64,000 nt of DNA from Chloroflexota bacterium (GTDB taxonomy: Bacteria; Chloroflexota; Anaerolineae; Promineifilales; Promineifilaceae): assembly GCA_022616275.1 (NCBI GenBank), contig JAKEFB010000142.1:1-64000 (forward strand), given 5' to 3'. The translations under genes were made by a program, and so were the position numbers. Below the pieces are notes generated by a model. It was given only the letters and a program-made list of their open reading frames with translations. It searched no databases and was not told where the DNA came from. Of the stretch, positions 1,152 to 63,500 are shown piece after piece. Numbering within the stretch: position 1 is the stretch's first letter; every line of letters starts with the position of its first letter.

Positions 1152-1250
1152 AGGAACACAGAGACCGGCAATCAAAGATTGCTTGGAGGAGACACAGAGA
1201 CCGGCAATTAAGGATTGCGGCAATCAAGGATTGCTTAGAGAGAACACAAA
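1152..1250 (+). repeat. Intergenic mosaic repeat with three hairpin cores
   Basis: Three imperfect copies of a 15-base inverted repeat (GCAATC, three-base loop, GATTGC) lie at 1168-1182, 1204-1218 and 1220-1234. They are separated by purine-rich stutters of ACACAGAGA type, the same word seen on the other strand at 14127-14185. Spacing is irregular, so this is not CRISPR. It fills the gap between two convergent genes. Confidence 0.75.
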
Positions 1251-1267
1251 GCTGATCGCTGAAAGCT

Positions 1268-2965: not shown

Positions 2966-3061
2966 AGGACACCAGTATACACCGGCCGGTGTCCCTAAGA
3001 AAGTAAAATGGGTTTCACCTAAACCAACGAAATGGCGCTGTGCAGGCAAGGGGGCGTGGAT

Positions 3062-3129
3062 GGATTTTGGATTTTAGATTTTAGACTTCGTCCTGACGGA
3101 CATCAGTCCGAAGGATTTTAGATTTGGGG
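3062..3129. repeat. Mosaic repeat, 34-base core flanked by ATTTTAG/ATTTTGG stutters
   Basis: ATTTTGG and ATTTTAG units surround a core at 3084-3117 that can fold into a cloverleaf-like set of nested hairpins. The core matches the reverse complement of 11124-11157 at 30 of 34 positions. The repeat supplies the last codons and the stop of the aconitase X gene (stop at 3118-3120 on the minus strand). Confidence 0.85.
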
Positions 3130-4923
3130 TACTGTAGCTCGTTCCAAAACGCGAATGGTAACTACGCCACCCTGTCGTCTCAATTCAACCAGATCGCCGT
3201 TAGCGACGCCCTGGGTTACGTCGGCGTCAAAGGCGTAGGCGTAGGGGATGCCTTCCAATGAGCAGGCGGGGGCGCTTTGCTGGTCTATCTCGGTGTTGAC
3301 GATGGCCAGCGGGGCTACGCCCCGGTAATACAGCTCCAGCAAGACGTAGGGAGCGACGGTAGAGCCGCTGCCCCTGGGAAAAATGGCGATCTTGCCGGCC
3401 ATGCTCTGGCCGTCGGCCGGGTGGCCTGGCTCTTCGACCACGCCCGTTTCCCGATTGACAAAACCCAGCAGCGTAATCGGCGTGCCGGTGACAAACGCCT
3501 CGCCGGTGACGGTGAACTTTTCCTGGGAGGGCAGGCCGCGGCCGGTGGCGGAGAAGAGTGTAGGGGTGTAGGGGTGTGGAGGTGTGGGGGGTTGCAAGTT
3601 TGCAAGTTTGCGAGTTTGCGAGTTTGCGAGTTTGCGAGTGAGCGGGTGAGTGGGTGACCTGCCACTTGCCACTTGCCATTCGCCGGTGGCGACGGCCAGG
3701 CAGCCGGCCAGGGGCATGACCGAGGCGGGGATGTTGTTCAGGCCGGACTTGAGGTAATGCTCGGCTTTCATCGAGTTGGTTAGAATGTGGTGGACCCAGC
3801 GTTGATCGTAGGGGACGACTTCCGGGCAGGTGTTCTCCAGCAGCAACGCCCCACTCTCCCGGATAATAGCCGCCAGGCCGGTGTGCTCGGCAATGGCCTT
3901 GTTGGCTGAAGCGGTAAAGATCCACAGCGGCGGCCGGCCGGCCGGGTCGCCGGGTACGGCCGTCACCTGTTTGCCGCGCAGCAGCCCGGCCACTGCCCGC
4001 AGCTCGCCGACCGACGCCTGGGGGCAGCCGATGACGACGAGCGAGACCGGGGCGCGCGGCCGGAGTTCGTCATAGCGGCGGCGCAATTCCGCTTCCGTAA
4101 AATGGAGCGTGGCCTGGAAGGGAGCCGGTTCCGGCGCTTCGCCCAGCCCATCAATGTACAGCAGCGGCGAGCCGTAGTTGGCCGCCGCGGCCGTCAACGC
4201 CTTGCGTTGTTCGTGGTTCAAGTTAACCGGCAGGCCACGGATGAACGGAATGGGACCATAGAGCAGCCGCCAGCCTGGTTGCCGCTGCTTGCCGATCCAG
4301 TCGCCCAGAATGGAAAAGTCGGCCGGGTCGGAGAGGGCGCAGGAGACGATCACCTCCAGGTTGGGCCGGCGGGCGGCCGGTTCCAGCAGGCCATACTTTG
4401 GCGTATAGCCGGTGAGGGCGCAGGCCAGAGCTGACAGCCCAGATTCGCGGTTGGTGGCCAGGCCACAGTAGGAGTTGCCGAAGCAAATGGCGTTGGACTC
4501 GGCCCAGGCGGCCACTCCCTGGGTCACGACCCCCTCCCACTCGTAAGGCACGCACGATTGAGTCGGCCGGACGCCCAGCCGGGTGTACAGCGCCACGATT
4601 TCCTCGCTCTCTTCCCGGAAGCCGGGCACGGTAATGCGCATGGCTTCAAACTGGGCCAGGTCGCAGCCGGCCGCGTTCAGCGTCGTGGGCACGGCCACCC
4701 GGGCCTGGGGGTCGCCGGCCAGCCGGGCCAGGAACTGGCGTAGCCCCAGCCCGCCGGTCAGCGGCGACACCCCTGACAGGTGGGCGCTCTGGATAGGGAT
4801 CAACTCGCTGGCCCCGGCGGCCGCGGCCATGTCTACCACCAGCCGCATCGCCATTTGCCGGGCTACCCCCTGCTCCCCCGCTAGCAACGCCCGTTGTTCC
4901 TCGTTCAACTGAATTGCGTTCAT
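3118..4923 (-). CDS. Aconitase X, large and small subunits fused (DUF521-DUF126)
   Basis: Residues 1 to about 410 match the aconitase X catalytic (DUF521) subunit, and residues about 460-601 match the swivelling small subunit (DUF126), with a GSGST motif after IFPRG. Aconitase X enzymes dehydrate either cis-3-hydroxyproline or, in archaea, mevalonate 5-phosphate. Large-then-small order resembles two type-II genes joined head to tail. The joining linker (about 412-458) is low-complexity, rich in Lys-Leu-Ala-Asn and Pro-Thr, and is encoded by intergenic-type repeats at 3558-3679. The stop codon is also in a repeat. A UbiD-family gene 8 kb upstream on the same strand makes the archaeal mevalonate role worth testing; substrate is not decided by sequence. 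Confidence 0.87.
   Translation of the reverse strand: MNAIQLNEEQRALLAGEQGVARQMAMRLVVDMAAAAGASELIPIQSAHLSGVSPLTGGLGLRQFLARLAGDPQARVAVPTTLNAAGCDLAQFEAMRITVPGFREESEEIVALYTRLGVRPTQSCVPYEWEGVVTQGVAAWAESNAICFGNSYCGLATNRESGLSALACALTGYTPKYGLLEPAARRPNLEVIVSCALSDPADFSILGDWIGKQRQPGWRLLYGPIPFIRGLPVNLNHEQRKALTAAAANYGSPLLYIDGLGEAPEPAPFQATLHFTEAELRRRYDELRPRAPVSLVVIGCPQASVGELRAVAGLLRGKQVTAVPGDPAGRPPLWIFTASANKAIAEHTGLAAIIRESGALLLENTCPEVVPYDQRWVHHILTNSMKAEHYLKSGLNNIPASVMPLAGCLAVATGEWQVASGRSPTHPLTRKLANSQTRKLANLQPPTPPHPYTPTLFSATGRGLPSQEKFTVTGEAFVTGTPITLLGFVNRETGVVEEPGHPADGQSMAGKIAIFPRGSGSTVAPYVLLELYYRGVAPLAIVNTEIDQQSAPACSLEGIPYAYAFDADVTQGVANGDLVELRRQGGVVTIRVLERATVPQI
3558..3679. repeat. Stuttered repeat inside the aconitase X gene
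   Basis: Three repeat words run in series: GTGTAGGG units, then about six GCAAGTTTG/GCGAGTTTG units, then GAGTGAG and ACTTGCC units. Identical words fill the gap at 56563-56690. Here they are translated in frame as the linker between the two aconitase X domains. Confidence 0.85.
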
Positions 4924-5028
4924 TAAAAACTAACCTTTGCCCGCACTTCGGCCCTGCCAAAGTCTGCGCCTTTGAGTCAAATTGTAATAATCAAAATTCG
5001 CGTTAATTTGCGTTAATTCGGTGCTCTT

Positions 5029-6315
5029 TTACTGCAACCAGTTCATCAACAACACGTACATCACGCTGGAAACCAGGCAGGCCACGACCATCACCGGCAG
5101 GCCATGCCGCGCCCACATCACCGCCGTAATCGGCCGGCGCGTCCGCTCCGACAGGGACACGACGACGACGTTGGCCGTTGAGCCGATAATTGTGCCGTTG
5201 CCGCCGAAGCCGGCCCCAAAGACCAGCGCCCACCATAGTGGCCCGGCGTCAATGCCGGCCGCCCCCAGCCCTTCAATAACAGGAATAAGCGCGATAGTGA
5301 TAGGAATGTTATCCACCACGGCCGAAAGAATGGCCACCACCCAGATGAGGCCGACGCCCAGGAGGGTGGGATTGGCGCTGCCGGCGCGGGCTACCATCTC
5401 CGCCACTCCCTCCAGCGCCCCGGCCGCCTCCAGGCCGCCGACCATGACAAAAAGGGCCATGAAGAAGATCAGCACGTTCCATTCCAGCCGCTCGAAAACC
5501 TGGTGCATATCCGGCCGGATCCACAGCAGGGCTACCGCCGCCGCCGTCAGGGCAATCAACGCCGGGCTGACGTGCAGCAGGTGATGGATGAAGAACAGGG
5601 CTACCGCACCCCCCAGGACCACTAAGCCCTTGTTGGCCGTGACCGGATCGTCCAGCGCCAGTTTCGGGTTCAGACCCTGAATAGCCTTGGCGTTGGTCGG
5701 GATGCGGCGCAGTTCGACCCGGAACAGGTAGAGGAGCAGGCCAAGCACCACCAGCCAGACCACCACCACCACCGGCAAGGAATTGCGCAGGAAGTCGCCA
5801 AAGGAGAGATTGGCGGCCGAGCCGATCAGCACATTAGGCGGATCGCCAACCAACGTACCCACCCCCCCGGTGTTCGATAGTAGGGCCTCGGCCATGAGAA
5901 AAGGGATCGGGTTAATGCCCAGGATTTCGCTGATGAGGATCGTCACCGGGGCGATGAGGACGACAGTGGTGACGTTGTCCAGGAACATAGATAGCACGGT
6001 CGTCACTGTGCCCAGGAAGACAAAGAGCAGCACCGGCCGGCCGCCGGACAATTGCCCGGCCAGGGTGGCCAGGTATTGGAAAAAGCCGGTCGGCTGCAGC
6101 AGGGAGACGAGGACCATCATGCCCAATAGAAGGCCCAGGGTATGGAAGTCAATGGCCGCAATGGCCCGGTCTTCGTTGTAAAAGCCCAGCGCCAGCCCGG
6201 CAATGACCATCGCCGCGGCGCCGGCGACGGCGGTAATCGTACGGTGGAGTTTTTCGGAAAAGATAATAGCCAGGGAAGCGAGGAAAATGAAACTGGAAAC
6301 GACGATAGCGGTCAT
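5029..6315 (-). CDS. NhaD/ArsB-type ion transporter (SLC13 superfamily)
   Basis: The 428-residue product has about eleven hydrophobic helices. Internal signatures are typical of the ion-transporter superfamily that includes NhaD Na+/H+ antiporters, ArsB and P-protein: a re-entrant segment with FLDNVTTVVLIAP near residue 112, then NTGGVGTLVGDPPN near 150, and GNGTIIGS in the C-terminal half. The transported ion is not evident; antiport of Na+ or export of an oxyanion are both possible. It overlaps the upstream CBS gene by four bases (ATGA), so the two are translationally coupled and the CBS protein may gate or regulate it. Neighbouring antiporters favour a cation role. Confidence 0.85.
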   Translation of the reverse strand: MTAIVVSSFIFLASLAIIFSEKLHRTITAVAGAAAMVIAGLALGFYNEDRAIAAIDFHTLGLLLGMMVLVSLLQPTGFFQYLATLAGQLSGGRPVLLFVFLGTVTTVLSMFLDNVTTVVLIAPVTILISEILGINPIPFLMAEALLSNTGGVGTLVGDPPNVLIGSAANLSFGDFLRNSLPVVVVVWLVVLGLLLYLFRVELRRIPTNAKAIQGLNPKLALDDPVTANKGLVVLGGAVALFFIHHLLHVSPALIALTAAAVALLWIRPDMHQVFERLEWNVLIFFMALFVMVGGLEAAGALEGVAEMVARAGSANPTLLGVGLIWVVAILSAVVDNIPITIALIPVIEGLGAAGIDAGPLWWALVFGAGFGGNGTIIGSTANVVVVSLSERTRRPITAVMWARHGLPVMVVACLVSSVMYVLLMNWLQ

Positions 6316-6788: not shown

Positions 6789-6867
6789 CTTTTTATCCTT
6801 CTACTAGCGGCTCAGGCTGGTCTCCGGCCGCCAGGGCATTTACTAAATTACCCAATTACCCAATAAC

Positions 6868-7827
6868 CTATACCGGCCCGCTCATTCTGGGCACACCCTC
6901 TTCCAACCGGCCGCTGCTTTCCCACCAGGCCCGAATCCGGCCGCCGACGGGCCGGCCGACCATCTTTTCCACCTCGGCCACCACGTCCCACAGGGCGACA
7001 AAGTCCACGCCGGTCCCCAGCCCCAGCTTGAAAGCCAGGAAAACCAGGTCCTCGGTGGCCAGGTTGCCGGCCGCGCCGGGGGCAAAGGGGCAGCCGCCCA
7101 ACCCAGCCACGCTGGAATCGTGAATACGCACCCCAGCCTGGATAGCGGCCGTGGTGTTGGCCAGCCCCATCGCCTGGGTGTCGTGCAGGTGGACGGCCAG
7201 CCTGGCCATGTCCAGCCGCCGGCCCAGCGCCTCCATCAGCCGGCCAACCTCTAACGGGCTGGCGTGGCCGATGGTATCGGAAATGGCCATTTCTTCCACG
7301 CCTGTCTCCCACAGTTTTTCGGCGTAGGCTATCACTTTCTCTGGCCGGATCGGGCCTTCAAAGGGGCAGACCCAGGCCGTGCTGATGTAAGCTCGCGTCC
7401 AGACGCCGTCTCGCCTGGCCCATTCGGCCAGCTTGCCGGCCATCTCCAGCGCCTGTTGGGTAGACATGCCGGTGTTGGCCTGGCTGAAGGATTCGCTGAC
7501 GGCCGCGCCAATGGCTATCGCCCGGCAACCGGCGGCCAAGGCCCGCTCGTAGCCCCGCTCGTTAAAGACCAGCCCGGTAAATTGCCGGGCGCCAGGTTCA
7601 TCAACCGCCGGGCCGTACTTGGCCAGCGCGTCACGCATTACCTCGCCGGCGTCGGCCATCTGGGGCACGGCCTTGGGGTTTACGAAGCTGGTCACTTCAA
7701 TGGATCGTAGACCGGCTTTCACCAGGCCGCCAACCAATCGTTTCTTGTCTTCAGTCGAGATAAGCGCCGCCTCGTTTTGCAGCCCATCGCGCGGCCCAAC
7801 TTCGTAAACCTTAAGGTACTCCGGCAT
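6868..7827 (-). CDS. mvaB: Hydroxymethylglutaryl-CoA lyase
   Basis: The enzyme cleaves 3-hydroxy-3-methylglutaryl-CoA to acetyl-CoA and acetoacetate in leucine degradation. The N-terminal EVGPRDGLQNE motif, the HLHDTQAMGLAN metal-binding histidines and the active-site loop GLGGCPFAPGAAGN with its cysteine are all present. Length (319 residues) fits the family. The chosen start begins MPEYLKVYEVGPRDG as in homologues; an upstream in-frame ATG lies inside a repeat and would add 23 unlikely residues. The stop abuts another repeat (TAATTGGG type). It sits between the CBS/transporter pair and the stress/antiporter block without an obvious pathway partner nearby, although a thiolase is encoded at 32.7 kb. 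Confidence 0.93.
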   Translation of the reverse strand: MPEYLKVYEVGPRDGLQNEAALISTEDKKRLVGGLVKAGLRSIEVTSFVNPKAVPQMADAGEVMRDALAKYGPAVDEPGARQFTGLVFNERGYERALAAGCRAIAIGAAVSESFSQANTGMSTQQALEMAGKLAEWARRDGVWTRAYISTAWVCPFEGPIRPEKVIAYAEKLWETGVEEMAISDTIGHASPLEVGRLMEALGRRLDMARLAVHLHDTQAMGLANTTAAIQAGVRIHDSSVAGLGGCPFAPGAAGNLATEDLVFLAFKLGLGTGVDFVALWDVVAEVEKMVGRPVGGRIRAWWESSGRLEEGVPRMSGPV

Positions 7828-7880: not shown

Positions 7881-7922
7881 GTAATCCAAAATCCAAAATC
7901 CAAAATTCAAAATCTAAAATCC
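7881..7922. repeat. AATCCAA-type stutter repeat
   Basis: Five to six tandem copies of a seven-base AATCCAA/AATTCAA unit lie between the HMG-CoA lyase and universal stress protein genes. The stop codon of the stress protein gene (7914-7916) is part of the repeat. The same word flanks cores at 3062-3129 and 61855-61922. Confidence 0.85.
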
Positions 7923-11075: not shown

Positions 11076-11110
11076 CGTTACAGGCTACCTCGCGGAGGCC
11101 CTGGGGGGTA

Positions 11111-11170
11111 ATCTCTCATCTCCAATCCTTCGGACTTGAGTCCTTCAGGACGAAGTCTCTAATCTCCACT
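11111..11170. repeat. Mosaic repeat with second copy of 34-base core
   Basis: ATCTCC/AATCTC units flank a core at 11124-11157. The core matches the 3084-3117 core in inverse orientation at 30 of 34 positions but has a different flanking word. Outer stem CTTCG/CGAAG and inner hairpins on GGACT and TCCT can form. It fills the gap between two minus-strand genes. Confidence 0.85.
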
Positions 11171-14126: not shown

Positions 14127-14185
14127 TTACTTTGTGCCCTCTCTGTGGCTCTCTGTGTCTTCTCCGTGTTCTCTGTGTTCCCTCC
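14127..14185. repeat. ACACAGAGA-type repeat forming a gene 3' end
   Basis: On the minus strand, four to five units of ACACAGAGA/ACACGGAGA run into the stop of the nuclease-like gene. The word is shared with 1152-1250. Here the repeat is translated as a charged tail. Confidence 0.8.
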
Positions 14186-20031: not shown

Positions 20032-20127
20032 CGTCCACTCCTATGAAAAAAGCCACGAATTGCACGAATTAGACGAATTAATTTTCATCCATTGTGGTGC
20101 GCTTCGCGCATGAAAACCCCTCTTTGT

Positions 20128-24541: not shown

Positions 24542-24611
24542 AATAGGAACTCCTACTCGCAAACTCGCAGACTCTACGTAGCGGAATAAGTATGCTTGTA
24601 AGAAGGTAAGA

Positions 24612-26162
24612 ATGCAAGAAGAACACAGCCCGCAACCCCAGCCTCGGAACTGGCTTGTCCTGGCCGGTGGCCTGGGAGTCGCCATCTTATTATGCCTGCT
24701 GGGGGGAACGCTGGCCATTCTGGCCGCCTCGCCGCCGGCGCTGCCAACGCGGGTCTCGCCGGCCGTTGTCGAAGTTCCACCCATAAACACGCCGGTGCTG
24801 TCGGCCGGCCAGCCGACGGTTCCTCCGTTAGTGGCCGAGACGCCAGCCGCGCCGCAAAGCGGCGGCCGTTCGGCCGGCGACCCGTATATTATCGAACTGG
24901 GCAACACCGGCTACGACGTTCAGCATTACACGCTGCGCCTGGCCCTGGACCCGGCCCAGCCAACCGTCGAGGGCACGACCATTATTGAAGCGGTGGCTAC
25001 CTTTCACGGCCTGGCCCAGCTCTCCCTCGACTTTATTGGCTTCGAGGTAGCAAGCGTGACCGTGAACGGGGCGGCGGCCGACTTTGCTCGCCAGGGTAAA
25101 AAGCTGATTGTCAACCTGCCGGCCTGGCTGCCGGCCGGCGCTCCTTTTACCCTGGCGGTGGCCTACCAGGGCCAGCCGGCCGTCGAGCAATCGCCTTACC
25201 TGGGCTTCGTGGACCACCTGGGCCTGCATTACCCCGATGGCAATAGCCTGTTTACCATTGCTGAGCCGGATGGGGCGCGCTATTGGTTTCCGGCCAACGA
25301 CCACCCGCTCGACAAGGCCACCTTTCGCTTTGAGCTGGTTGTCCCGGCCGGGCTGACGGCCGTGGCCAACGGCCAGTTGCTGGAAACCCGGCCGGGGCTG
25401 ATGCCCGACGGCCGGACCGGGGAGCTGTTCATCTGGGAACACAACCACCCCATGGCCACTTACCTGGCCGTCGTGGTTGTCGGCCGCTACCAACGGCTGG
25501 ACAGCCAGTCTCCTGGCGGCGTCCCTTTGCGCCATTACGTCTTTCCCGGGCTACAAACCGAATTTGAGGAAGCCAACGCCATTACCGGCGAGGCCATTGA
25601 CTGGATGGGCGACCTGTTCGGCCCCTATCCCTTCGAGGCTTTTGGCCTGGTTACCGTCCAGTTGCCGGGGGCTTCGATGGAAACCCAGACGATGGTGCTC
25701 CTGTCCGACGGTATGATCGGCCGGCGGACCATCGCCCACGAGCTGGCCCACATGTGGTTTGGCGACTGGGTCAGCCTGGAGTCGTGGGCCAGCATGTGGC
25801 GCAACGAAGGCTTTGCCACCTACACCCAGATACTATGGGAAACGCGCGGCGACCCCGAGGCGCTGGAGCTGCAAATGGAGGGCGTGCGCTCGGCCGTCGA
25901 GGGAAATGACGAAAATTATCCTATCGGCAACCCGCCGCCAGGACAGCTTTTTGAGTTTAACATTTATTACAAAGGGGCGTTGTTCGTCCACGCCCTACGC
26001 CAGGAAATGGGGGACGAGGCCTTTTTCCGGGGTCTACGCCTCTACTTGGAGCGTTACGGCGGCGGCACGGCCAGCGACGCCGAATTCCAGGCGACGATGG
26101 AAGAGGCAGCCGGCATCCCCCTCGACACCCTTTTTACGGAGTGGCTGGCTCAATCGCAGTGA
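24612..26162 (+). CDS. M1-family zinc aminopeptidase, membrane-anchored
   Basis: After a charged N-terminus, residues 14-40 form a membrane anchor, followed by a Pro/Val-rich linker. Residues about 95-300 form the saddle-like N-terminal domain, and the catalytic site HELAHMWFGDW with a downstream Glu in NEGFATY gives the zinc ligands (HEXXH-18-E). The substrate loop reads GASMETQ where GAMEN is usual, so specificity may differ. The large C-terminal ERAP-like domain is absent (516 residues). It should cut N-terminal residues from peptides outside the membrane. It is divergent from the MEMO gene and its end overlaps the pentapeptide gene tail by 13 bases. Confidence 0.92.
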   Translation: MQEEHSPQPQPRNWLVLAGGLGVAILLCLLGGTLAILAASPPALPTRVSPAVVEVPPINTPVLSAGQPTVPPLVAETPAAPQSGGRSAGDPYIIELGNTGYDVQHYTLRLALDPAQPTVEGTTIIEAVATFHGLAQLSLDFIGFEVASVTVNGAAADFARQGKKLIVNLPAWLPAGAPFTLAVAYQGQPAVEQSPYLGFVDHLGLHYPDGNSLFTIAEPDGARYWFPANDHPLDKATFRFELVVPAGLTAVANGQLLETRPGLMPDGRTGELFIWEHNHPMATYLAVVVVGRYQRLDSQSPGGVPLRHYVFPGLQTEFEEANAITGEAIDWMGDLFGPYPFEAFGLVTVQLPGASMETQTMVLLSDGMIGRRTIAHELAHMWFGDWVSLESWASMWRNEGFATYTQILWETRGDPEALELQMEGVRSAVEGNDENYPIGNPPPGQLFEFNIYYKGALFVHALRQEMGDEAFFRGLRLYLERYGGGTASDAEFQATMEEAAGIPLDTLFTEWLAQSQ

Positions 26163-27139: not shown

Positions 27140-27254
27140 TGCCGCCCAGGGTTACTGGAGGAGTAAACCTAATCCGCTTTAGCGGTCCTTTTCAAACTAA
27201 ACACCGCCAATAGCGAATTTGTGACAGCTTGGCCAGGTTTCGGAGGGTGATCGC

Positions 27255-27950: not shown

Positions 27951-28061
27951 GGCTGGCAGTATAGAAATAAGGTTAAGATTTGTCAATGAGGCGCTATGGT
28001 CGGTATCATTGCGTTGCTGTCGCAAATGACGGCAGAGGCGTGTCCAGGGCAAAGCCTGGAC

Positions 28062-28117
28062 CAGCGACGGACGACGGACGATAAATCGTCGTCTATCGTC
28101 TGCCGTCTGTCGTCCCA
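28062..28117. repeat. GGACGAC-type inverted stutter repeat
   Basis: Units of GGACGAC on the left and CGTCTGT/CGTCTAT on the right form an imperfect inverted array around TAAAT. It lies just before the HhH protein gene, in the gap between divergent genes. Confidence 0.75.
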
Positions 28118-28139
28118 TAGGATGTGCCAGGGTGGTGAA

Positions 28140-29210: not shown

Positions 29211-29288
29211 TGTAAATTAGGTAATCAGGTAATTGGGTAACAGGTTACTGAGGCCAATTACTCCATTACTTAATTACCAATTACCCCT
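29211..29288. repeat. GTAATTGG-type inverted stutter repeat
   Basis: Left arm repeats of GGTAATTGG type face right arm repeats of CCAATTACC type around a GAGGCC centre, giving an imperfect inverted array between two same-strand genes. Related words occur at 6841-6867 and 33944-34006. Confidence 0.85.
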
Positions 29289-29306: not shown

Positions 29307-30260
29307 ATGAACGATGAACACCAACCCGGCTTTCTATCCCGACTGGGGCGAGCGATCCTCTGGTTTCTTAAGCTGATCATTGTCATCCTGCTGGCTTTTG
29401 GCCTGGGCCTGGCTGGTTATTTTGGCTGGCAATGGCTTTCCTCGTCCGCCAACGCCTTCAGCAGCAACAGCGGCTTGCTCCGCAGCGACGTCAATACCCT
29501 GATGGAGCGCGAGACCAGCCAGCGGCAGCAGTTGTCTGACCTCCAGGCGACCGTGGACAACCAGGAAGGCCGGCTGGCCGCGCTGGAAAATAGCGGGATG
29601 GAGGAAGCGCTGGCCCAACAGGAGGCGGTGCTGCAATCGCTGGAAAGCCAGTTAGCCACCGTGGTGGCCGGCAGCCAAACCATCACCGGCAATGTGGCCA
29701 GCCTCAGCGCCGGCCTGATTGCCTTACAGAGCGATTTAAACGAGAACGCCGGCCGGGTTGACGAGTTGGGAGGCCAAGTGGATAGTTTAAACTCCCAGGT
29801 TGGTGTATTAGATAGTGGCCTGGTGGAGCTGGGCGCCGCCTCGGCCGAGCCGGCCGAAGCCGTCGAGCGTCTGGAGCAGGCGTTGTCTCTCTTCCGCATC
29901 TGGGAACTGATTGCCCGGGCCAGGCTGCGCCTGGCGGAAAGCAATTATGGACTGGCCACGAGCGACGTCCAGCAAGCCCTGGCCGGTGTGGATGCCCTGG
30001 TGGCCGCCGACCCGGCCGGGGCGTCCGAAACGCTGCAACTGGTCCAGGTCCGCCTGGCGCTGGCCCTGGGCAGCCTGCCCGGCGACCCGGTCGCCGCCGC
30101 CCGGGACCTGGAAGCGGCCTGGGAAGCGCTGGACCGGCTGCTGGCCACCCTGGTGCTGCCCGCCTCTTTGCCGGCCGCCCCGGAAATAACCGCCACAACA
30201 CCGGCCGGCACGCCCGCGGCCACGGAAACGCCCGCAGCTACGCCTACACCTGGAGATTAG
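29307..30260 (+). CDS. Unknown membrane-anchored coiled-coil protein
   Basis: The 317-residue product has one membrane helix at about 14-42, then a long coiled coil (LRSDVNTLMERETSQRQQLS to about 180) and an alanine-rich helical domain (ARARLRLAESNYGLATSDVQ, about 195-285), and ends in a Thr/Pro/Ala tail. No family is recognised; the layout resembles HemX-like or polar scaffold proteins. AAGGAAG lies six bases before the ATG. It is downstream of the HhH protein gene. Its stop codon (30258-30260) is the first TAG of a GAGATTA repeat. Confidence 0.6.
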   Translation: MNDEHQPGFLSRLGRAILWFLKLIIVILLAFGLGLAGYFGWQWLSSSANAFSSNSGLLRSDVNTLMERETSQRQQLSDLQATVDNQEGRLAALENSGMEEALAQQEAVLQSLESQLATVVAGSQTITGNVASLSAGLIALQSDLNENAGRVDELGGQVDSLNSQVGVLDSGLVELGAASAEPAEAVERLEQALSLFRIWELIARARLRLAESNYGLATSDVQQALAGVDALVAADPAGASETLQLVQVRLALALGSLPGDPVAAARDLEAAWEALDRLLATLVLPASLPAAPEITATTPAGTPAATETPAATPTPGD

Positions 30261-30321
30261 AGATTAGAGATTGCTGGCAAGCCCTGGTTGCCAATCTCTA
30301 ATCTCCAATCTCCAATCTCTG
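30253..30321. repeat. GAGATTA inverted stutter repeat
   Basis: Three GAGATTA units, a centre with CTGGCAAG..., and four inverted units (CCAATCTC/TAATCTC) make an imperfect inverted array. It provides the stop of the coiled-coil gene and ends two bases before the HAD gene's stop, so it separates two convergent genes. Confidence 0.85.
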
Positions 30322-32710: not shown

Positions 32711-33949
32711 ATGAGTAACCAGGATACAAAACGAGAAGTTGTCATTCTCGGCGCGGCCAGAACGCCGGTTGGCAAGTTGATGGGCGCGCTGAGCCATCTG
32801 AGCGCCCCAGACCTGGGCGCGCTGGCCGTCAAAACGGCCGTCGAACGGGCGGGGATCGATCCTTCGACCGTGTACGAAGTGATTATGGGCCACGTCGTCT
32901 CGGCTGGGACAGGCCAGGCCCCGGCCCGGCAGGCCGCCCTGCGCGCCGGCCTGACCGATAATGTAGGCGCGGCCAGCGTCAACAAGGTCTGCGGCTCGGG
33001 ACTCAAGGCCGTCATGCTGGCCGCCAATGCCATTGCCGCCGGGGAAGCGGAGGTCTACGTGGCCGGGGGCATGGAGAGCATGTCTCAGGCCCCCTACCTG
33101 CTGCCCGACGCCCGGCAAGGGCTGCGCTACGGCCACGGCCGGGTGCTGGATGCCATCTTGAAAGACGGGCTGTGGTGCGCCTTCCAGGACTGGGCAATGG
33201 GCAACGCCGCCGAGTTTATCGCCCGGCAGTTCGAGGTCAGCCGGGAAGAAATGGACGAGTTTGCTCTGTGCAGCCACGAAAAAGCGGCCGCCGCCACGGC
33301 CGCCGGCCGGTTCCAGGAGGAAGTCGTGCCGGTGGAGGTCAAGAGCCGCCAGGGCGTTAGCCTGGTCACCCAGGACGAGCCGATCCGGGCCACCTTTGAC
33401 AACGGCGGCTATACGCTGGCCACCAGCCTGGAACAATTGGCCAAGCTACCGCCCGCTTTTGAAGAAGGCGGCCAGGTCACGGCCGGCAACGCGCCCGGAC
33501 TCAACGACGGGGCAGCCGCCCTGGTCGTTACCAGCCGGGCCGAGGCAGAGCGCCAGGGGCTGAAGCCCATGGCCCGAATCGCCGGCTACACCCACGCGGC
33601 CGTCCATCCGCAGTGGATCTTCGCCGCCCCCGCCCGGGCCATCCCCCGCCTGCTGGACCGGCTAGGCTGGACGATGGCCGACGTGGACCTGATCGAGCTG
33701 AACGAGGCTTTTGCCGCCCAGGTGTTGGCCGACGGGGCGGAAATGATCCAGAAAGGGTACGATTGGGACTGGGACAAGGTTAACGTCAATGGGGGCGCGG
33801 TTGCCCTGGGCCACCCTATTGGGGCCAGCGGCGCGCGCCTCCTGGTAACACTCATTTATGCCCTGCGCCAGCGCAACCGGAAACGTGGTATCGCCTCCCT
33901 CTGCCTTGGCGGCGGCGAAGCGGTGGCGCTGGCCATAGAACTGGAGTAA
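32711..33949 (+). CDS. atoB: Acetyl-CoA acetyltransferase (thiolase)
   Basis: Thiolase joins two acetyl-CoA to acetoacetyl-CoA or reverses it. The 412-residue enzyme has the nucleophile region NKVCGSGLKAV (Cys near residue 95), NEAFAAQ, NVNGGAVALGHPIGASGAR with the catalytic His, and CLGGGEAVA with the second Cys. AAAGGAG lies seven bases before the ATG, and a good promoter is upstream. It could feed fatty acid oxidation, or HMG-CoA formation for isoprenoids together with the mevalonate-type genes at 3-14 kb. Its stop codon lies in a GAGTAATT repeat. Confidence 0.95.
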   Translation: MSNQDTKREVVILGAARTPVGKLMGALSHLSAPDLGALAVKTAVERAGIDPSTVYEVIMGHVVSAGTGQAPARQAALRAGLTDNVGAASVNKVCGSGLKAVMLAANAIAAGEAEVYVAGGMESMSQAPYLLPDARQGLRYGHGRVLDAILKDGLWCAFQDWAMGNAAEFIARQFEVSREEMDEFALCSHEKAAAATAAGRFQEEVVPVEVKSRQGVSLVTQDEPIRATFDNGGYTLATSLEQLAKLPPAFEEGGQVTAGNAPGLNDGAAALVVTSRAEAERQGLKPMARIAGYTHAAVHPQWIFAAPARAIPRLLDRLGWTMADVDLIELNEAFAAQVLADGAEMIQKGYDWDWDKVNVNGGAVALGHPIGASGARLLVTLIYALRQRNRKRGIASLCLGGGEAVALAIELE

Positions 33950-34006
33950 TTGAGTAATTAGGTAATTGGGGTAAAGTTAATTACTTAATTACCGATTACT
34001 CCTCCT
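33944..34006. repeat. GAGTAATT/GGTAATT inverted stutter repeat
   Basis: GAGTAATT and GGTAATT units face inverted TTACTTAATTACC units. The thiolase stop (33947-33949) falls in the first unit, and the repeat ends just before the ribosome binding site of the next gene. Confidence 0.85.
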
Positions 34007-35729: not shown

Positions 35730-35758
35730 TTGACAACTTTAGATTGGCGGCTAATAAT
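35730..35758 (+). promoter_or_regulatory. Possible sigma70-type promoter
   Basis: TTGACA (35730-35735) and AATAAT (35753-35758) are 17 bases apart. It lies after the Rossmann gene and about 130 bases before the next start, so it probably drives the unknown gene at 35893 and pyruvate kinase. Confidence 0.5.
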
Positions 35759-35892
35759 TAGGAAACTTTCTCAGCGGGAATTCTTATCCTCTTCAGTGCT
35801 TATCTAAAGTTTATCGTCCCCACATTCAGCCGCCTGGTGTAGGCTTATTGGCAATTGGATAACGACACCAGAACAGCAAAGGATCTGTAAAT

Positions 35893-36972: not shown

Positions 36973-36981
36973 CCGCCTGTT

Positions 36982-38397: not shown

Positions 38398-38462
38398 GTT
38401 ATTGGTTATTGGTTATTAGTTATTGGTTATTGGACAGTAATAACCAATAATCAATAACCCAC
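38397..38462. repeat. GTTATTG inverted stutter repeat
   Basis: Four to five GTTATTG/GTTATTA units face inverted AATAACC units. It fills the gap between pyruvate kinase and the AAA+ gene. Confidence 0.88.
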
Positions 38463-38490
38463 TTACCGGTAGTTGCGAAGGAGAGAAAAT

Positions 38491-39810: not shown

Positions 39811-39811
39811 C

Positions 39812-40531: not shown

Positions 40532-40535
40532 TCTT

Positions 40536-41438
40536 ATGAAAATCATTGTCATTTTGAACCCTTACGCCAATCGCTGGAAAGCCCAGGGCAAAGCCCCGGC
40601 CATTGAAGCGGCCTGCGCCGCGGCCGGCCTGGAGTACACGCTGATCCCCATCCCGGCCCCGGGCCAGGGGCGGCAGTTGGCGATCGAGGCGGCTACGGAC
40701 GGCTACGACGCCATTGTGGCCGCCGGCGGTGACGGCACGGTGAACGAGGTCGTCAACGGCCTCATTGTTGCGGCCGGCGACGGCCCCACGCGGCCGCTCG
40801 GCGTTCTCCCCATCGGCACGGGTAATGACTTGAGCGACATGGCCGGGCTGCCCCGCGACCTGGCGGCGGCCGCCCAGGTTATTGCCGCCGGCCAGACGCG
40901 CCAGATTGACGCCGGCCGGGTGACGGCCGATGGGCGCGTCCACTTTTTCGACAACAACTGCGCTGTGGCCATGGAGCCAATGGTCACACTGGAAAATATC
41001 CGCATGACCCGCCTCTCCGGCAACATTCGCTATATCGTCGCTCTGGCCAGGGCCCTGCTCCGTTTGAAGGCCTGGCAGATGCGTATTGCCTGGGACGATG
41101 GTGGCTACGAGGGGCCGGCTTACCTGCTTTCCGTGTGCAATAGCGCTCGCACCGGCGGCCTTTTCCCGATGGCCCCCAGCGCCCGGCTGGACGACGGCCT
41201 GTTTGATTTCGTTTTTGCCCCGGAAGTCCCCAAACAGACGGTGCTGGCTATCCTGGCCCGGCTGTTCCGGGGGACTCACGTCCACCACCCACGGATCACC
41301 TACGGCCGGTCGGCCCACCTGGAAATTGAAAGCCATCCCGGCACCCCTATCCACGCCGACGGCGAATTGATTGCCGAAGCCGCCAACCACATCACCTACG
41401 ACATTCTCCCCGGAAAAATTACCCTGCTCTCTCCTTGA
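40536..41438 (+). CDS. Diacylglycerol/sphingosine kinase family lipid kinase
   Basis: The 300-residue product has NPYANRW, the nucleotide-binding AAGGDGTVNEVVNGL loop and LPIGTGNDLS, as in YegS/DgkB lipid kinases. It should phosphorylate diacylglycerol or a related lipid at the membrane. Placement next to the phosphodiesterase gene suggests lipid recycling. Length is typical. Confidence 0.93.
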   Translation: MKIIVILNPYANRWKAQGKAPAIEAACAAAGLEYTLIPIPAPGQGRQLAIEAATDGYDAIVAAGGDGTVNEVVNGLIVAAGDGPTRPLGVLPIGTGNDLSDMAGLPRDLAAAAQVIAAGQTRQIDAGRVTADGRVHFFDNNCAVAMEPMVTLENIRMTRLSGNIRYIVALARALLRLKAWQMRIAWDDGGYEGPAYLLSVCNSARTGGLFPMAPSARLDDGLFDFVFAPEVPKQTVLAILARLFRGTHVHHPRITYGRSAHLEIESHPGTPIHADGELIAEAANHITYDILPGKITLLSP

Positions 41439-41546
41439 TTATTGTTTGGTATCTGGAGAATTTGCCCCGGGCAAAACCAACGGCCTTACCTGACTAAGCT
41501 CTCTAGCTTGGCATTCTTTGAACCGTACCCTAACCACCCAAATCCC

Positions 41547-42635
41547 TTACTGATAGACAATGACAGCCGGCTGCGGCTCCAGACTCATAACTTCGGCCGG
41601 GGTCAGCAGCGGGCTGTCCCAGTTGTAAAACAGCTTCAGGCCACCGTATTCAAAGGCAGGCTCGCCGACGTATTGGCTGTAATCGCGCGTCTTGGCCTGG
41701 GGGCCGCCGAAGCCGTCGGCGTCGAAGACCAGTTCCACATAGGGATAATCCTCAATGAACTCTTTCCCCCGGACCATGCTGGTCTCAAATTGATGGATGA
41801 TGAAGACCTTGTTCAGGCCAGTTTCCTGGGCAATGACGTTTAGCTCAGCCTGGATAGGGTTGATCTGGCTGGCGTAAATCTGGCCCAGGTTCCGGCCGGG
41901 GACTTGGTCGCCCTCCATGGTGAACTCGGAATCGAGGGCCAGGTGGACGTGCGGCTTATAGAGAAACTCCTTGATGCGCTTAAACTCGTAAGGGATGCTG
42001 GCGTGCCCCGGCTGGATGTCCAGGACGACGGCCACGCCCGCTTCTTCGGCCGCTGTTACCCAATCGCTCAGCGTTTCCATACTCATCCAATGGTTGTAAG
42101 TGCCGTAATCGCCCGGGTAAGCGTCGGCCACAGTGCTGACAATATGAAAGGTCGGCAGGACGTACCGGTCTGGGGAGAGGGTTTGGTATTGGGCAACGAC
42201 GCCCCGCAGCTCCTGAAGCATCACCGGCCGGGGGTTGGCCCCCAGAATACCCAGGTCCGGCCCCAGCGGGCTGCCGTAATAGGTCACCAGGCGAAAGCGG
42301 GCCAGGTAAGGTTGAGGCTGGCCAGGCGTCAGGGCCAGGGCCAGCGCAGTGGGCAAGGGGGTTAGCGAAGGGGTGGGCGACACGGCCGGCGTCTCCGTTG
42401 GGATGGCGGTTGGCGGAACCGGGGTAGGGCTGCTGGTGGGCGAAGGATTGGGTGAAGGAGACGGCCAGGGCGTAGCCGTAGTAGGAATCGGCCGGGGCGT
42501 ATTGGTGACGGGCAGCAGGCCGACGTGCGCCGTGGGAATCAAGGTCGGCACGGCCGGCGGCCCCTGCCAGGCCAGCCAGCCGCCGGCAACCAGCATCGCT
42601 CCTACCCCCAGGCAGCCAACGACAAACAGAAACAA
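41547..42635 (-). CDS. Unknown membrane-anchored protein with Pro/Thr/Ser linker
   Basis: A hydrophobic N-terminus (MFLFVVGCLGVGAMLVAGGWL) acts as signal or anchor, then about 60 residues of Pro/Thr/Ser linker precede a folded domain of about 250 residues (YYGSPLGPDLGILGANPRPV, VVLDIQPGHASI, LALDSEFTMEGDQ, VFIIHQFETSM). The spacing of acidic motifs on beta strands hints at a TIM-barrel glycosidase, but I cannot assign a family. The start is a TTG since the frame is closed just upstream; it follows the MBL hydrolase gene by 35 bases. Confidence 0.65.
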   Translation of the reverse strand: MFLFVVGCLGVGAMLVAGGWLAWQGPPAVPTLIPTAHVGLLPVTNTPRPIPTTATPWPSPSPNPSPTSSPTPVPPTAIPTETPAVSPTPSLTPLPTALALALTPGQPQPYLARFRLVTYYGSPLGPDLGILGANPRPVMLQELRGVVAQYQTLSPDRYVLPTFHIVSTVADAYPGDYGTYNHWMSMETLSDWVTAAEEAGVAVVLDIQPGHASIPYEFKRIKEFLYKPHVHLALDSEFTMEGDQVPGRNLGQIYASQINPIQAELNVIAQETGLNKVFIIHQFETSMVRGKEFIEDYPYVELVFDADGFGGPQAKTRDYSQYVGEPAFEYGGLKLFYNWDSPLLTPAEVMSLEPQPAVIVYQ

Positions 42636-48420: not shown

Positions 48421-48461
48421 CACTCGTAAAACCAATCGGTGAAATCTGTGCAATCTGTGGA

Positions 48462-56562: not shown

Positions 56563-56690
56563 AAGTGTCAAGTGCCAGGTGTCAAGTGCCAGGTGTCACG
56601 TGTCAAGTTTGCAAGTAGGCAAGTAATGAAGTAACCCGCAAACTCGCAGACTCGCAAACTCGCAAACTTGCAAACTTGCAGACATGCATA
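56563..56690. repeat. Stuttered repeats of GTGTCAAGTGCCAG and CAAACTCG types
   Basis: Copies of GTGTCAAGTGCCAG are followed by copies of CAAACTCG/CAAACTTG. The second word is the same as that in the aconitase X linker (3558-3679) and near 24556-24580. It separates the ABC ATPase and permease genes, and the permease start codon lies at its end. Confidence 0.85.
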
Positions 56691-59296: not shown

Positions 59297-59353
59297 TGTG
59301 GTTATGTAAAGGTGTGGGTGTGTAGGTGTGTAGTAATGAAGGTACGGCGGTGA

Positions 59354-60574
59354 ATGATGATTAAACGAATGGTAGGCGCGCTGGTGTTGCTGGCCCTGGC
59401 GGCGGCAGCTTATTTCTGGTGGCAATCGGCCGGGGCGGTGACTGGTCAGGCCCAGGCGACGCTCCTGTCCCTGCCAACGCCGGAGAATGCGGCCGATCTT
59501 GCCCTGGCCGGCTTTGCCCGGGCAATGGAACCGGACACCATCGAGTTCCCTCGCGACCTGGGACCACACAATGACTACCAGACTGAGTGGTGGTATTACA
59601 CCGGCAACCTGGCCACGGCCGGCGGCCGGCCCTTCGGCTTTCAACTGACCTTTTTCCGTCTCGCCGTGGCGTCGCCAGGGGACGAAGCAGGTTGCGCCGG
59701 GCCAGATTCGGTAGCCATACCCTCCTGCGCTGCTACCTCAGCCTGGCGCACTAATCAGATTTACCTGGTCCACTTTACGATTAGCGACATTGCCGCCGAG
59801 AAATTCTATGCCAGCGAACGGTTTAGCCGGGGCGCGGCCGGGCTGGCCGGGGCCCAGGCCGTTCCTTACCGTGTCTGGTTGGAAGAGTGGTCGGCCAGTG
59901 AAGTCGAGCCAGGTGTTGTTCGCCTGGTTGCTGCTACCGAGGAAGTGAGATTGGATATTGCTCTGCGACAAATGCTGCCGCCCATCCTGCACGGCGACGG
60001 CGGTCTCAGCCCCAAAGGACCGGAGCCAGGCAACGCCTCTTATTACTACTCCATCGTCCAGCAGGCCGCCACCGGCACGGTGACTGTTGGCGACCAGCAA
60101 TTTGCCGTCACCGGCCGGGCCTGGAAGGACCACGAATACAGTACTTCGGCCCTCAGTCCGGGGGCGGTCGGCTGGGATTGGTTCTCACTGCAACTAGACA
60201 ATGGGGCGGCGCTGATGTTCTTCCAAATCCGCCGCGAGGATGGCGCGTTGGAGCCAATCTCCAGTGGCACTTTTATCCGGCCGGACGGGGCAACCGAACC
60301 CCTGAGCAGAGAAGATTGGCAATTAGAGGTGCTGGACACCTGGACCAGCCCCACCAGCGGCGCGGAATACCCGGCCGGCTGGCGCATTACCATTCCCAGA
60401 ATTGGGCTGATGCTAGAAGGGCAGCCCCTGATGTCAAACCAGGAACTGAATGTCTCCACCGTTTACTGGGAAGGGGCCTCGGCTTTTAGCGGCACGCTGG
60501 CCGGCCAGGCAGTCAGCGCCCAGGGCTACGTAGAATTGACCGGCTACGCCGAGCCGTTGACCGGCCGGCTCTAA
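59354..60574 (+). CDS. CrtC/AttH-like lipocalin-family protein
   Basis: An N-terminal hydrophobic anchor (VLLALAAAAYFWW) is followed by a domain with PHNDYQTEWWYYTGNL, FQLTFFRLA, WKDHEYSTSAL and WDWFSLQLDNGAALMFF, hallmarks of the carotenoid 1,2-hydratase/AttH fold with two linked lipocalin barrels. AttH-type proteins accompany ABC exporters of FtsX type, as here. It probably takes up or modifies a hydrophobic ligand outside the membrane. Its end overlaps the kinase gene end by four bases. Confidence 0.9.
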   Translation: MMIKRMVGALVLLALAAAAYFWWQSAGAVTGQAQATLLSLPTPENAADLALAGFARAMEPDTIEFPRDLGPHNDYQTEWWYYTGNLATAGGRPFGFQLTFFRLAVASPGDEAGCAGPDSVAIPSCAATSAWRTNQIYLVHFTISDIAAEKFYASERFSRGAAGLAGAQAVPYRVWLEEWSASEVEPGVVRLVAATEEVRLDIALRQMLPPILHGDGGLSPKGPEPGNASYYYSIVQQAATGTVTVGDQQFAVTGRAWKDHEYSTSALSPGAVGWDWFSLQLDNGAALMFFQIRREDGALEPISSGTFIRPDGATEPLSREDWQLEVLDTWTSPTSGAEYPAGWRITIPRIGLMLEGQPLMSNQELNVSTVYWEGASAFSGTLAGQAVSAQGYVELTGYAEPLTGRL

Positions 60575-63500
60575 CCCAGGTTGTTCATAGCCAGGGCGGC
60601 CGCCTGTTCGAGCGTCGTAGCCTGCCCTTCGGCCCAGGCAGTGGCAAACAGTGCAGCGTCGAGCTGGTTTTGAGCCATCGCCAGAAAGTGGCTGTAATTG
60701 CTCAGATCGTTGACTGCCAGGGGCGTCCCAATCGCCTGGCGAAAAGCGTCCACTGCCCCTAATAAGCGGGCCGCTCGCTGGGGCTGGCCGGTGAAAGCGG
60801 CCAGACCGGCCAATCCGATCAGGCAAGAACTCATCCCTTCCGAGTTGCCCATTTCCTGGAACAGGGCCAGGCTCTCCGCAAGAGAAGTTTTCATCTGTTC
60901 GTAATCGCCCAAAAAGCCGGCCATCGTCGCCAGGCGGGCCAGGGAGTAGGCAACGCCCCAGGTGTTGCCGACTGTGCCATAGAGGGCCAGGCTTTCCTGG
61001 TAAAAAGCGGCCGCCCGTTCGTATTGGCCCTGCAGGTGAGCCAGTTCGCCAAGGTTAATGGTTGGGAAGGCCAGTACCCATTTGTCGTCTACTTCGCGGG
61101 CTATTTCCAGGCTTCGCTCAAAGAAGGATTGGGCCACGGCCTGCTCCTGGCGTTCCAGGTAAATGGCCCCCAGGTTACTAAGGAGACCGGCCATACACCA
61201 CCGGTCTTCACTCTCTTCGGCCAGGGCCAGCGCTTCTTCGTACATACTCTGGGCAGCCTTCTCGTCGCCCTGAGATAACATCACCGCGCCCAGGCCCAGG
61301 AGGGCGTAGGCGATGGCGCGTTGATCGTTGGCCGGCCGGCTGATGGCCAGGCTTTGTTCAAGGGCGGCCCGGGCGGCAGCAAAGTCGCTCTGGAAATAGG
61401 CCAGGTAACCGGCCGCGTTCAATGCCTTACAGTGGACGGCGGCCGGCGCTGAAGAGAGTTCTTTTTCGAGAAAGGCTGCTAATTGTTGCCGTCCTTCGCT
61501 GAGCTGGCCACGTAACTCCCAGAAACCCCACAGGGCTCCGGCCAGACGCAGGCCGGACTCTACGCCATCTGGAGCAGCCCTAAACCACTGCAGGGCGTTC
61601 CTGAGATTACCGTACTCCTCGGCCAGCCGGTCCAGCCACTCTATTTGCCCGGTACTCCTCAAATGTGGTTCGGCGGCCTCGACCAGGGAGAGATAATAAG
61701 CCGCATGTCGCTGCCAGGCTTGCTGGCAGTCCGCGCCGGCCTCCAGCCGTTCCAGGGCATATTCGCGGATCGTCTCCAGCATCGAAAAACGCGCCCGGCC
61801 GTTTCCACCCGCCCCCTGCCGCAGCAAATTCTTGTCCACCAGCGAAGCCAACAGATTTTGGATTTTGGACCCTTCGACTTCACTCAGGGCAAGTTTTGGA
61901 TTTTGGATTGAATCTAAAATCGCTTCGGCCGCTTCTGGGGTGAAGCCGCCGACGAAAACGGCCGACCGGGCGAAAACCGCCTTTTCCGCCTCGTTTAGCA
62001 GGTCATAGCTCCAGTCAATGGCCCCGCGCAGCGTCTGCTGGCGGGCCGGCAGGTCGCGCGGGCCGCCGGTGAGCAGCGCCAGCCGGCTGCTCAGCCTTTC
62101 CAGGATGGCCTGGGGCGCTAGAGAGCGGACCCGCGCCGCCGCCAGCTCAATGGCCAGCGGCAGGCCGTCCAGCCGGGCGCAAATCTCGGCTACCGCCGCG
62201 GCGTTCTCGCTGGTCAGGTCAAAGGTGTAACTGGCCGCCCGGGCTCGGGCGACAAAGAGGGCTATGGCCGGATCCTGGGCCAGTGGTGGAACCGGGTACT
62301 CGCACTCGCCGTAGACGGAGAGCAACTCCCGGCTGGTGACCAGTAGCCGGAGGTGAGGAGCGGCGGCCAGCAGGCTGTTCACCTGAGGGCCGGCGTCCAA
62401 CACCTGTTCGAAATTATCTAGCACCAGCAACAGGCGCCGCTTGCGCAGGTATTCTTTGAGCGCATCCACCAGGGGCTGGCTGCCAGATTCCTTAACGTCC
62501 ACCGCCTGGGCAATCGTGGGGACGACCAGGTCGGGGTCTTGCAGCGGGGCCAGGGGAACGAGAAAGACGCCATCCGGGTAGCCGCGTAGTAGCTCGGCCG
62601 CAACCTGCAAGCTCAACCGTGTCTTTCCGGCGCCGCCAGGGCCGGTCAGCGTGACCAGGCGAACGTCAACCCGGCGTAACAAGTTGCACACAGCGGCCAC
62701 TTCTTCTTCCCGGCCGACGAACGAAGTCTGGGCGGCCGGCAGGTTGTTCGGCGGCGGAGCCACTGCGCCGGTGGCCTGCCCCAGCGCAGCCAGGAATTCG
62801 TCTACTGACTGGTGGCGCTCCTCCGGTTTTTTGGCCATGGCCTTGAGAATGAGTTGCTCCAGGCCAACGGGCACGCCGGCCTGAAACTCGCTGGGGGGTG
62901 GTGGGGGTTCGACGAGGTGTTTGTGGAGAACGGCCGTCAGCGTCTCGGCCTTAAAGGGCAGCCGCCGGGCGACCAACTCGTACAGGACGACGGCCAGGGA
63001 ATAAATGTCGGCCCGGCCGTCGGCCGGCTGGCCCATAATCTGTTCTGGGGCCATGTAGTCAGGTGTTCCCGTGGCGCTGTCCGGCGGGGAAAGCTGGTTG
63101 CCGGCCAGCATCCTGGCCAGGCCGAAATCGCCCAGGACGACCCGGCCATCGGAATCAAACATGATGTTGGCCGGCTTGACGTCCCGGTGGATCATACCCC
63201 GTTGGTGGGCGTAGCTGAGGGTGTGGCCCAGCCGGCGAACCAGCTCCAGCGCCCTGTCTAAAGACAACCACTGGCCGCGGCCGGCCAGCTCTGCCAGCCG
63301 TTCTTTGAGCGTTGGCCCGTCTATAAATTCCATGACCATATAGGCCATGTCGCCGTCCTGGTCAAAGTCGTGGATCTGGACGATGTTGGGGTGGCGCAAG
63401 GCAGCTACGTAGCGGGCCTCCTGTTGGAAGCGGCGCTGGAAGTCGGGCTCTTTGGCCAGGGATGAGCGGATGAATTTGATAGCTACGTAACGCTCCAGGC

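Follow-up and report, generated by a model that had tools for sequence, protein, structure and literature searches.

The 64-kb window analysed here (positions 1 to 64,000 of contig JAKEFB010000142.1, from a Chloroflexota bacterium of the family Promineifilaceae) carries genes for aconitase X, a Usp-family protein, thiolase, pyruvate kinase, an ABC ATPase, an FtsX permease and a kinase-NB-ARC-TPR protein, with short arrays of a repeated word, mostly 7 or 8 nucleotides (nt) long, lying in gaps between genes and within some of the genes. An earlier note on this DNA had placed such arrays in most gaps of the window, and the words that it named (ATTTTAG, GAGATTA, GTTATTG, GGACGAC, GTAATTGG, GCGAGTTTG, and ACACAGAG) were all located. 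The arrays are real, but "most" is too strong, with arrays present in 12 of the 41 window gaps at a tandem score of at least 10, 15 at a score of at least 8, and 7 at a score of at least 12.

The window and 794.5 kb more of the same genome form a sample of 858.5 kb out of 8.53 Mb (309 contigs), in which 734 genes were called (88.6% coding) with our own hexamer model and no standard program. The genome lies near Promineifilum/Ardenticatenaceae, with the best near-full-length named relatives of one 566-aa protein being 75–78% identical, and is the sole member of its genus in the comparison set. Tandem scores of at least 12 were reached in 116 of the 531 gaps of at least 25 nt, compared with means of 0.0 in five dinucleotide shuffles and 3.5 in two draws of coding pieces of equal length, and unit periods of 7 (70 gaps) and 8 (29 gaps) prevail. 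This over-representation of tandem 7 (8)-nt units in gaps places the arrays among the heptameric repeats of the short tandemly repeated repetitive (STRR) type, and the excess over random sequence that the earlier note had called for is found.

The same note had proposed many words but one design, and this is borne out: the 169 intergenic arrays of this genome comprise 68 different units when near variants are counted separately, and arrays built to the same plan stand in syntenic gaps of relatives. GGAGATT (24), GAGATTA (10), GGTTATT (10), and GGATTTT (7) are the commonest units, and the words blend into one another in single-letter steps. The GAGATTA pattern, allowing up to two mismatches, has 278 + 274 matches in the genome (overlaps counted) compared with 139 + 141 for the reversed pattern, and blastn finds the array at 30251-30319 at some 40 further places, often matching both strands, with 40 of 737 first-look candidates scored. 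The units run head to tail without the spacers of unique sequence and constant length, or the identical repeats, of a clustered regularly interspaced short palindromic repeat (CRISPR) locus, in line with the earlier dismissal of CRISPR. Words and ends vary by site, with no defined consensus palindrome or terminal repeats as in repetitive extragenic palindromes (REP), bacterial interspersed mosaic elements (BIME) or miniature inverted-repeat transposable elements (MITE). No transposase was seen among the 19 Pfam-scanned genes of the 55 called in the window, with no search aimed at transposases made.

Order of G-rich and C-rich words

The order of the words is strict and independent of the words themselves. 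Neighbouring arrays of opposite kind no more than 100 nt apart are arranged as a G-rich word followed by a C-rich word in 88 pairs and the reverse in 1, over five data sets (own genome 37 of the 88, the set from genus g2 20, other family members 14, named loci 9, and cyanobacterial plasmids 8), with some gap pairs sharing descent, so that the counts are not fully independent events. A further 29 neighbour pairs share one orientation (14 GG, 15 CC). Arrays with equal G and C (19 in total) are left out of the pair count, and those with G and C differing by less than 3 are left out of the near-stop, in-gene pair and density counts (relatives, plasmids) given below. The order is identical on either strand, and therefore belongs to the DNA itself rather than to gene direction.

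The two arms of a pair need not match. No exact complementary run of at least 8 nt is present in 41 of the G-to-C pairs, compared with 0 C-to-G pairs of this kind, and when 37 of the 41 were re-paired at random in four sets, only 2 lay above the 95th percentile of random complementarity, with values against random partners of 0.28, 0.24, and 0.29 vs 0.30, 0.25, and 0.28 in three sets and 0.39 vs 0.26 in the own genome. With complementarity near random in the non-matching pairs, hairpin pairing does not explain the order. Array hairpins are G-first rather than C-first in ratios of 51:1 in the own genome, 25:3 in g2, 15:2 at 40 loci of other family members, and 15:5 at 51 named loci, whereas plain hairpins of the same DNA (arms of at least 11 nt) show no order (63:63, 30:19, 35:41, and 36:32). 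Furthermore, the GC skew of the two halves of a gap switches sign in tandem gaps with arrays (+0.188/-0.120, compared with +0.020/+0.014 without) and in convergent gaps with arrays (+0.425/-0.219, compared with +0.049/-0.024 without) of the own genome.

The order extends into genes, two arrays of the window, GCGAGTTTG at 3558-3657 and GATTTTG at 61854-61909, qualifying the earlier description of the arrays as intergenic. Aconitase X contains the largest window array (3558-3678), between the Pfam domains AcnX (residues 4-407) and swivel (484-560). An array scoring at least 10 is present in this linker in 16 of 30 aligned sequences (our own and 29 relatives), and wherever both kinds of word occur the order is G-then-C (13 of 13, from eight genera, with words differing by genus), the remaining array-bearing sequences being GG or G alone. 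Paired arrays within genes over all loci scanned are G-to-C in 10 cases and C-to-G in 0, with GG in 4 and CC in 1; nine of the ten G-to-C pairs lie in aconitase X-type genes because most loci of the relatives were picked around that gene. The second in-gene array of the window (61854-61925) lies between NB-ARC (residues 301-495) and TPR (residue 723 on). Its gene (60571-63609) encodes a kinase-NB-ARC-TPR protein of 1012 aa, an NLR/STAND-like signalling protein.

Turnover among relatives and features of the window

For comparison, one to four stretches, chiefly from the surroundings of aconitase X, were taken from each of 46 further genomes of the family. In 72 overlapping syntenic comparisons with flanks at least 80% identical, 37 carried the same word, 14 a different word, 12 no array, and 9 a relic only. 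Gain and loss of 7-nt units is seen directly between relatives at syntenic gaps, in two cases in one arm only, which is the unit-number variation typical of STRR repeats and upholds the slippage suggested by the earlier note. Both arms may also be swapped together, as in TCACGCA/TGCGTGA (C-first) in one species vs GGTAATC/GATTACC in another, between flanks 91% and 93% identical.

Array density, computed from 3.6 to 80 kb per relative, is patchy: rich and poor genomes are interleaved across 53 family genomes, 19 of the 40 loci examined in other family members lack arrays altogether, and the top words differ between genera. Five genomes of one sister genus (G002-G006) hold 2.4-4.0 arrays per 10 kb. 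G001, labelled as the same genus, is almost array-free at 0.15 per 10 kb (G001-G006, loci L182-L201) and provides a natural comparison for a responsible gene. A GTGGACAGTGAGCG array in G005 (contig C9, L198 ~5885-6289) is so long that the record has an internal run of N.

The features of the window are collected in Table 1. Words of a second class (ACACAGAG, CACGAATTA, CACAGATT, and ACGCAAAG), with periods of 9-10 and longer, obey the G-first rule poorly and supply some of the C-first exceptions among array hairpins. A 28-nt palindrome (CTTCGGACT..GTCC..AGGACGAAG) occurs at 4 places in the 858.5 kb, twice in the window and at L139 13677 and L151 12147, within arrays of two different words and always (4 of 4) facing the same way with respect to the G-rich strand, and is possibly a REP-like passenger.

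Table 1. Word arrays and related features of the 64-kb window, with their gene context.
Position	Words	Context
1156..1240	ACACAGAGA / CGGCAATCAAGGATTG cluster, A-rich C-containing words, second class; ACACAGAG at 1156 and 1192	
3061..3125	GATTTTA array (ATTTTAG 3061-3085), 28-nt palindrome inside at 3086-3113	gives aconitase X TAA stop
3558..3678	mosaic GTGTAGGG / TTGCGAGT / GTGAGCGG (G words), then TGCCACT (C words)	within aconitase X gene, AcnX-swivel linker
3592-3639	GCGAGTTTG within the mosaic	aconitase X gene
4995..5018	AATTCGCGTT array, period 10	
6846..6868	AATTACCC array	
7883..7921	AATCCAA array (G strand GGATTTT)	gives Usp-family gene stop
11110..11167	ATCTCCA words, C strand, by eye, under array cut-off; 28-nt palindrome inside (11128-11155)	
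14139..14180	TCTCTGTGT array, second class	within predicted open reading frame without Pfam match
20054..20080	CACGAATTA array, second class	
24555..24620	ACTCGCAA then GTAAGAAG, C-to-G pair against the rule, under polarity score cut-off	divergent gap
28065..28114	GGACGAC array 28065-28081 and mirror 28089-28114, G then C	divergent gap
29215..29284	GTAATTGG (29215-29240) / GTAATCAG words and mirror CAATTACT	
30251..30319	GAGATTA array (30253-30272) and mirror (30293-30319)	gives TAG of 317-aa gene
33944..33992	GAGTAATT array (GTAATTGG at 33944-33967) and mirror TTAATTAC	gives thiolase TAA
38398..38459	GTTATTG array 38398-38433 and mirror 38439-38457	directly 3' of pyruvate kinase stop
48434..48459	CAATCTGTG array, second class	
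56563..56688	GTGTCAAGTGCCAG (G words), then GCAAACTCGCA (C words), unlike words	fills ABC ATPase-FtsX permease gene gap
56633-56688	GCGAGTTTG as C strand	
59312..59333	GTGTAGGT array	
61854..61925	GATTTTG words flanking CTTCGACTTCACTCAG core, then AATCTAAAATC (by eye)	within kinase-NB-ARC-TPR gene

Possible origins of the arrays

The arrays are probably the product of DNA-level rewriting of unconstrained stretches rather than a signal at gene ends. A mutational process would keep rewriting tolerant DNA (gaps, protein linkers), with slippage adding and removing units of 7-8 nt and whole words being replaced, both of which are seen between relatives. A process acting around a centre, with both 3' ends carrying G words, is the simplest that would place G words first on both strands while leaving the two words independent. 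In a break-centred version, the DNA would open within unconstrained sequence, each 3' end would gain a stuttered G-rich word of 7-8 nt, templated by other arrays or self-primed, and joining of the extended ends would leave G words first and C words second on either strand, whether or not the words match. The product would look like two fused telomere ends, the 88 to 1 polarity matching the run of telomerase-type repeats towards an end if, as we infer, the former end lies at the centre, or like two G-tailed ends, the G-tailing of terminal transferase being another parallel. As a gradient, an enzyme and empty sites are all missing, we rate this version slightly below an even chance.

Several observations weigh against it. 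With growth at the 3' end the inner units should be younger, provided that slippage has not evened them out, whereas no polar gradient is found within arrays (331 mismatches in the outer half vs 328 in the inner half), and sequence outside the arrays is more word-like on the outer side (0.419 vs 0.384, significance not computed). No clean pair of full and empty insertion sites was found. The reverse transcriptase domain RVT_1 was not found in the array-bearing G003, G020, and G026 (97, 94, and 97% complete), reverse transcriptases beyond its reach being possible, and is present in G011-G013, where no array was seen in the 20 kb sampled. Ku was found in 1 of 53 genomes, which is not our own (G000); PolX-type matches, present in 38 genomes of the 53 and above the cut-off in 23, are spread over rich and poor genomes; and no frame of AddB size with PDDEXK_1 turned up in G001-G006, of which G002-G006 are array-rich. 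The polarity itself has exceptions in the one counted pair, the sub-cut-off pair at 24555-24620, and 11 C-first array hairpins (some of them TCACGCA). Divergent gaps with arrays in the own genome show no skew switch (+0.023/+0.011, n=17), perhaps because their arrays lie off centre, and convergent gaps of g2 without a called array do switch (+0.150/-0.169, n=9). Additionally, 47 of the 88 G-to-C pairs are complementary and would also require a common template or fold-back copying, and the stop enrichment and convergent-gap hairpin excess described below suggest that some selection acts too.

Among candidate enzymes, a reverse transcriptase or telomerase as required maker was rejected, RVT_1 being unlinked to array density, as was Ku-type end joining, given the single genome with Ku. 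Tolerance of palindromes through lost SbcD is likewise not supported, as 48 of the 53 genomes, both rich and poor, have SbcD matches, although the rich G006 and G052 have none.

Replication slippage with fold-back (snap-back), in which a G-rich nascent 3' end stutters, folds and copies itself, needs no break and, though unlikely, is the rival that survives best. Whole-unit slippage is seen, complementary pairs are frequent, and short loops are common; an excess of heptamers has been tied to polymerase slippage (Rehm 2015, PMC4692102). The pairs without a complementary run keep the polarity nonetheless, and slippage alone brings no new word, yet 14 of the 72 syntenic comparisons differ in word.

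An RNA element of 3' ends or operon spacers, in which hairpins would be selected after stops (for termination, mRNA protection or translation coupling) with arrays as the easiest stem, is improbable. The earlier note had proposed that the arrays supply stop codons, and four stops do fall within array words, ending AAATCTAA before AATCC, GATTTTAG before ATTTT, GATTAG before AGATTAG, and GGAGTAA before TTGAGTAA; over the genome sample, however, only 31 of 669 genes have their stop within a period-7/8 array, and 7 of 669 their start. The suggested enrichment within 20 nt of stops holds, modestly, with 89 of 186 array ends there compared with 70.0 +/- 6.2 expected from random placement within the same gaps (p 0.0025), and starts are slightly avoided (42 of 190 vs 55.4 expected). 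G-rich arrays lie close 3' of stops, in 58 of 72 tandem-gap cases and 13 of 15 convergent-gap cases. In the own genome, convergent gaps hold 13 array hairpins and divergent gaps 4, of which one is balanced (74 convergent and 98 divergent gaps exist by a slightly different gene set). Array hairpins fold well (medians of -25.0 and -26.3 kcal/mol), although plain hairpins do alike (-27.7 and -23.9), and both arms can change together.

A 3'-end system in the sense of the earlier note is partly supported by stops and hairpins, but fails as the defining feature of the class. Divergent gaps are about as array-rich as others (20 of 98, compared with 13 of 74 convergent and 83 of 359 tandem), the same polarity holds within coding linkers and between arms that do not pair (41 of 88 pairs), and 19 of 40 relatives' loci do without an array. 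T-tracts lie beside 6 of 55 and 0 of 28 array hairpins, compared with 13 of 140 and 11 of 58 plain hairpins, and a terminator pattern scan listed none at the arrays of 27000-42000. With arrays in divergent gaps and linkers and T-tracts rare, a 3'-end system does not explain the class, and intrinsic terminators are rejected.

A mobile or gene-converted family, its words spreading from site to site by ectopic gene conversion or another carrier, is about as improbable as the RNA element. One word does occur at many sites, as the blastn places of the 30251-30319 array and the counts of GGAGATT and GAGATTA show, and the 28-nt palindrome sits within two different words. The GAGATTA array matched 12 plasmid records (E up to 10), of which 7 are cyanobacterial (6 Nostoc, 1 Kovacikia), though the lowest E-value (1e-3) belongs to Halomonas. 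Fixed ends are not seen, however, words blend by single letters, and top words differ between genera. The GTTATTG array matched Fischerella and Nostoc plasmids first, but most of its 80 records are plasmids of Klebsiella (30), Acinetobacter (24), and Escherichia (9), and the exact mirrored GGAGATT pattern gave 0 matches in viral contigs.

Chi sites are G-rich and read towards a break, and G-rich words acting as Chi-like signals that stop AddAB/RecBCD on the 3'-ending strand would fit the polarity, which would then be selected and not mutational, but the many words per genome and the AddB-size PDDEXK_1 frames missing from the array-rich G002-G006 (other RecBCD-type enzymes not searched) weaken this explanation and leave it highly unlikely.

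Whichever explanation holds, a polarity independent of the word, kept also between unrelated words and in linkers, constrains any mechanism and separates hypotheses that were previously inseparable. Were the break-centred version true, it would amount to end-healing in free-living bacteria without Ku or a known reverse transcriptase, and would explain the origin of spacers and some protein linkers. A bolder and rather doubtful extension is a telomere-like but telomerase-free healing of opened DNA in Chloroflexota and cyanobacteria, in which 3' ends would be tailed from a genome-wide vocabulary of G words and fused; the G-then-C grammar would then be a repair scar and STRR repeats its fossils, with spacers and protein linkers steadily overwritten by head-to-head word arrays.

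Comparison with known repeat systems

Short heptamer arrays of the STRR class have been known from cyanobacteria for decades. Four cyanobacterial plasmids (800 kb) hold sparser arrays (0.35 to 1.6 per 10 kb), with pairs that are G-to-C in 8 cases, C-to-G in 1, GG in 6, and CC in 4, 6 of the 8 having no complementary run, and cyanobacteria may share the putative repair or copying habit. No description of a G-then-C rule for several words was found in searches of an open-licence library, which is not proof of absence, and the papers compared below, as far as their accessible text goes, mostly describe heptamer repeats word by word and without a mechanism. The rule is new relative to these known heptamer repeats, in that one word can stand for another whereas the order stays fixed.

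The GGGAATC and GGGGA(T/C)T heptamers of Xanthomonas and Nostoc (Rehm 2015, PMC4692102) are, in the accessible text, likewise tandem 7-nt G-rich units, mostly intergenic, with paired copies convergent (70 and 75 cases), and lie near stops on the coding strand and near starts on the non-coding strand. They are described there as one characteristic word type per genome, whereas the 68 units here include dozens of words and mosaics, two unrelated words per pair, linker copies, and whole-word replacement between relatives. The TAACTGA repeats of Beggiatoaceae, cyanobacteria, and Bacteroidetes (MacGregor 2015, PMC4679880), with mixed heptamers in Microcystis, are similarly patchy across phyla, with strain-specific sites and 7-nt indels; their main word is another, and the polarity rule is not described in the portion available.

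Two word classes (TDNGATT and NNTGAGT) are also known from heptamers of the Nostoc trnL intron P6b stem, where class II was repeatedly replaced by class I at one site (Kaasalainen 2015, PMC4476775), though those repeats lie within a structured intron and their polarity is not discussed in the text at hand. Long TGAGTGC/TGAGGAC mosaics at L151 4862-4921 and L135 6742-6861 resemble the class II NNTGAGT words. Geobacter metallireducens has four tandem GGACCGG units at 49 places, in and between genes, and further octa- and heptanucleotide sites that mostly pair up on opposite strands, but these elements have a fixed consensus per class and are read, in the accessible passages, as regulatory or regulator binding sites (PMC2700814). 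The (GATAGRA)n satellites of Chloroflexus aurantiacus (Subirana 2019, PMC6749651) are heptamer arrays from the same phylum; they are single-word, and the available text describes no mirrored design.

The tandem repeats of Borgs (PMC9879509) resemble the arrays in evolving fast, in occupying gaps and disordered parts of proteins, and in their enrichment for one base (A in Borgs). Borgs are archaeal and extrachromosomal, their units within open reading frames are multiples of three, and no G-to-C pairing is described in the excerpt. Mammalian interstitial telomeric sequences (PMC7215372) are of the TTAGGG type, and RVT_1 is seemingly not required for the arrays described here, but, by the accessible account, they are the parallel in which short G-rich repeats are put into chromosomes during the repair of breaks.

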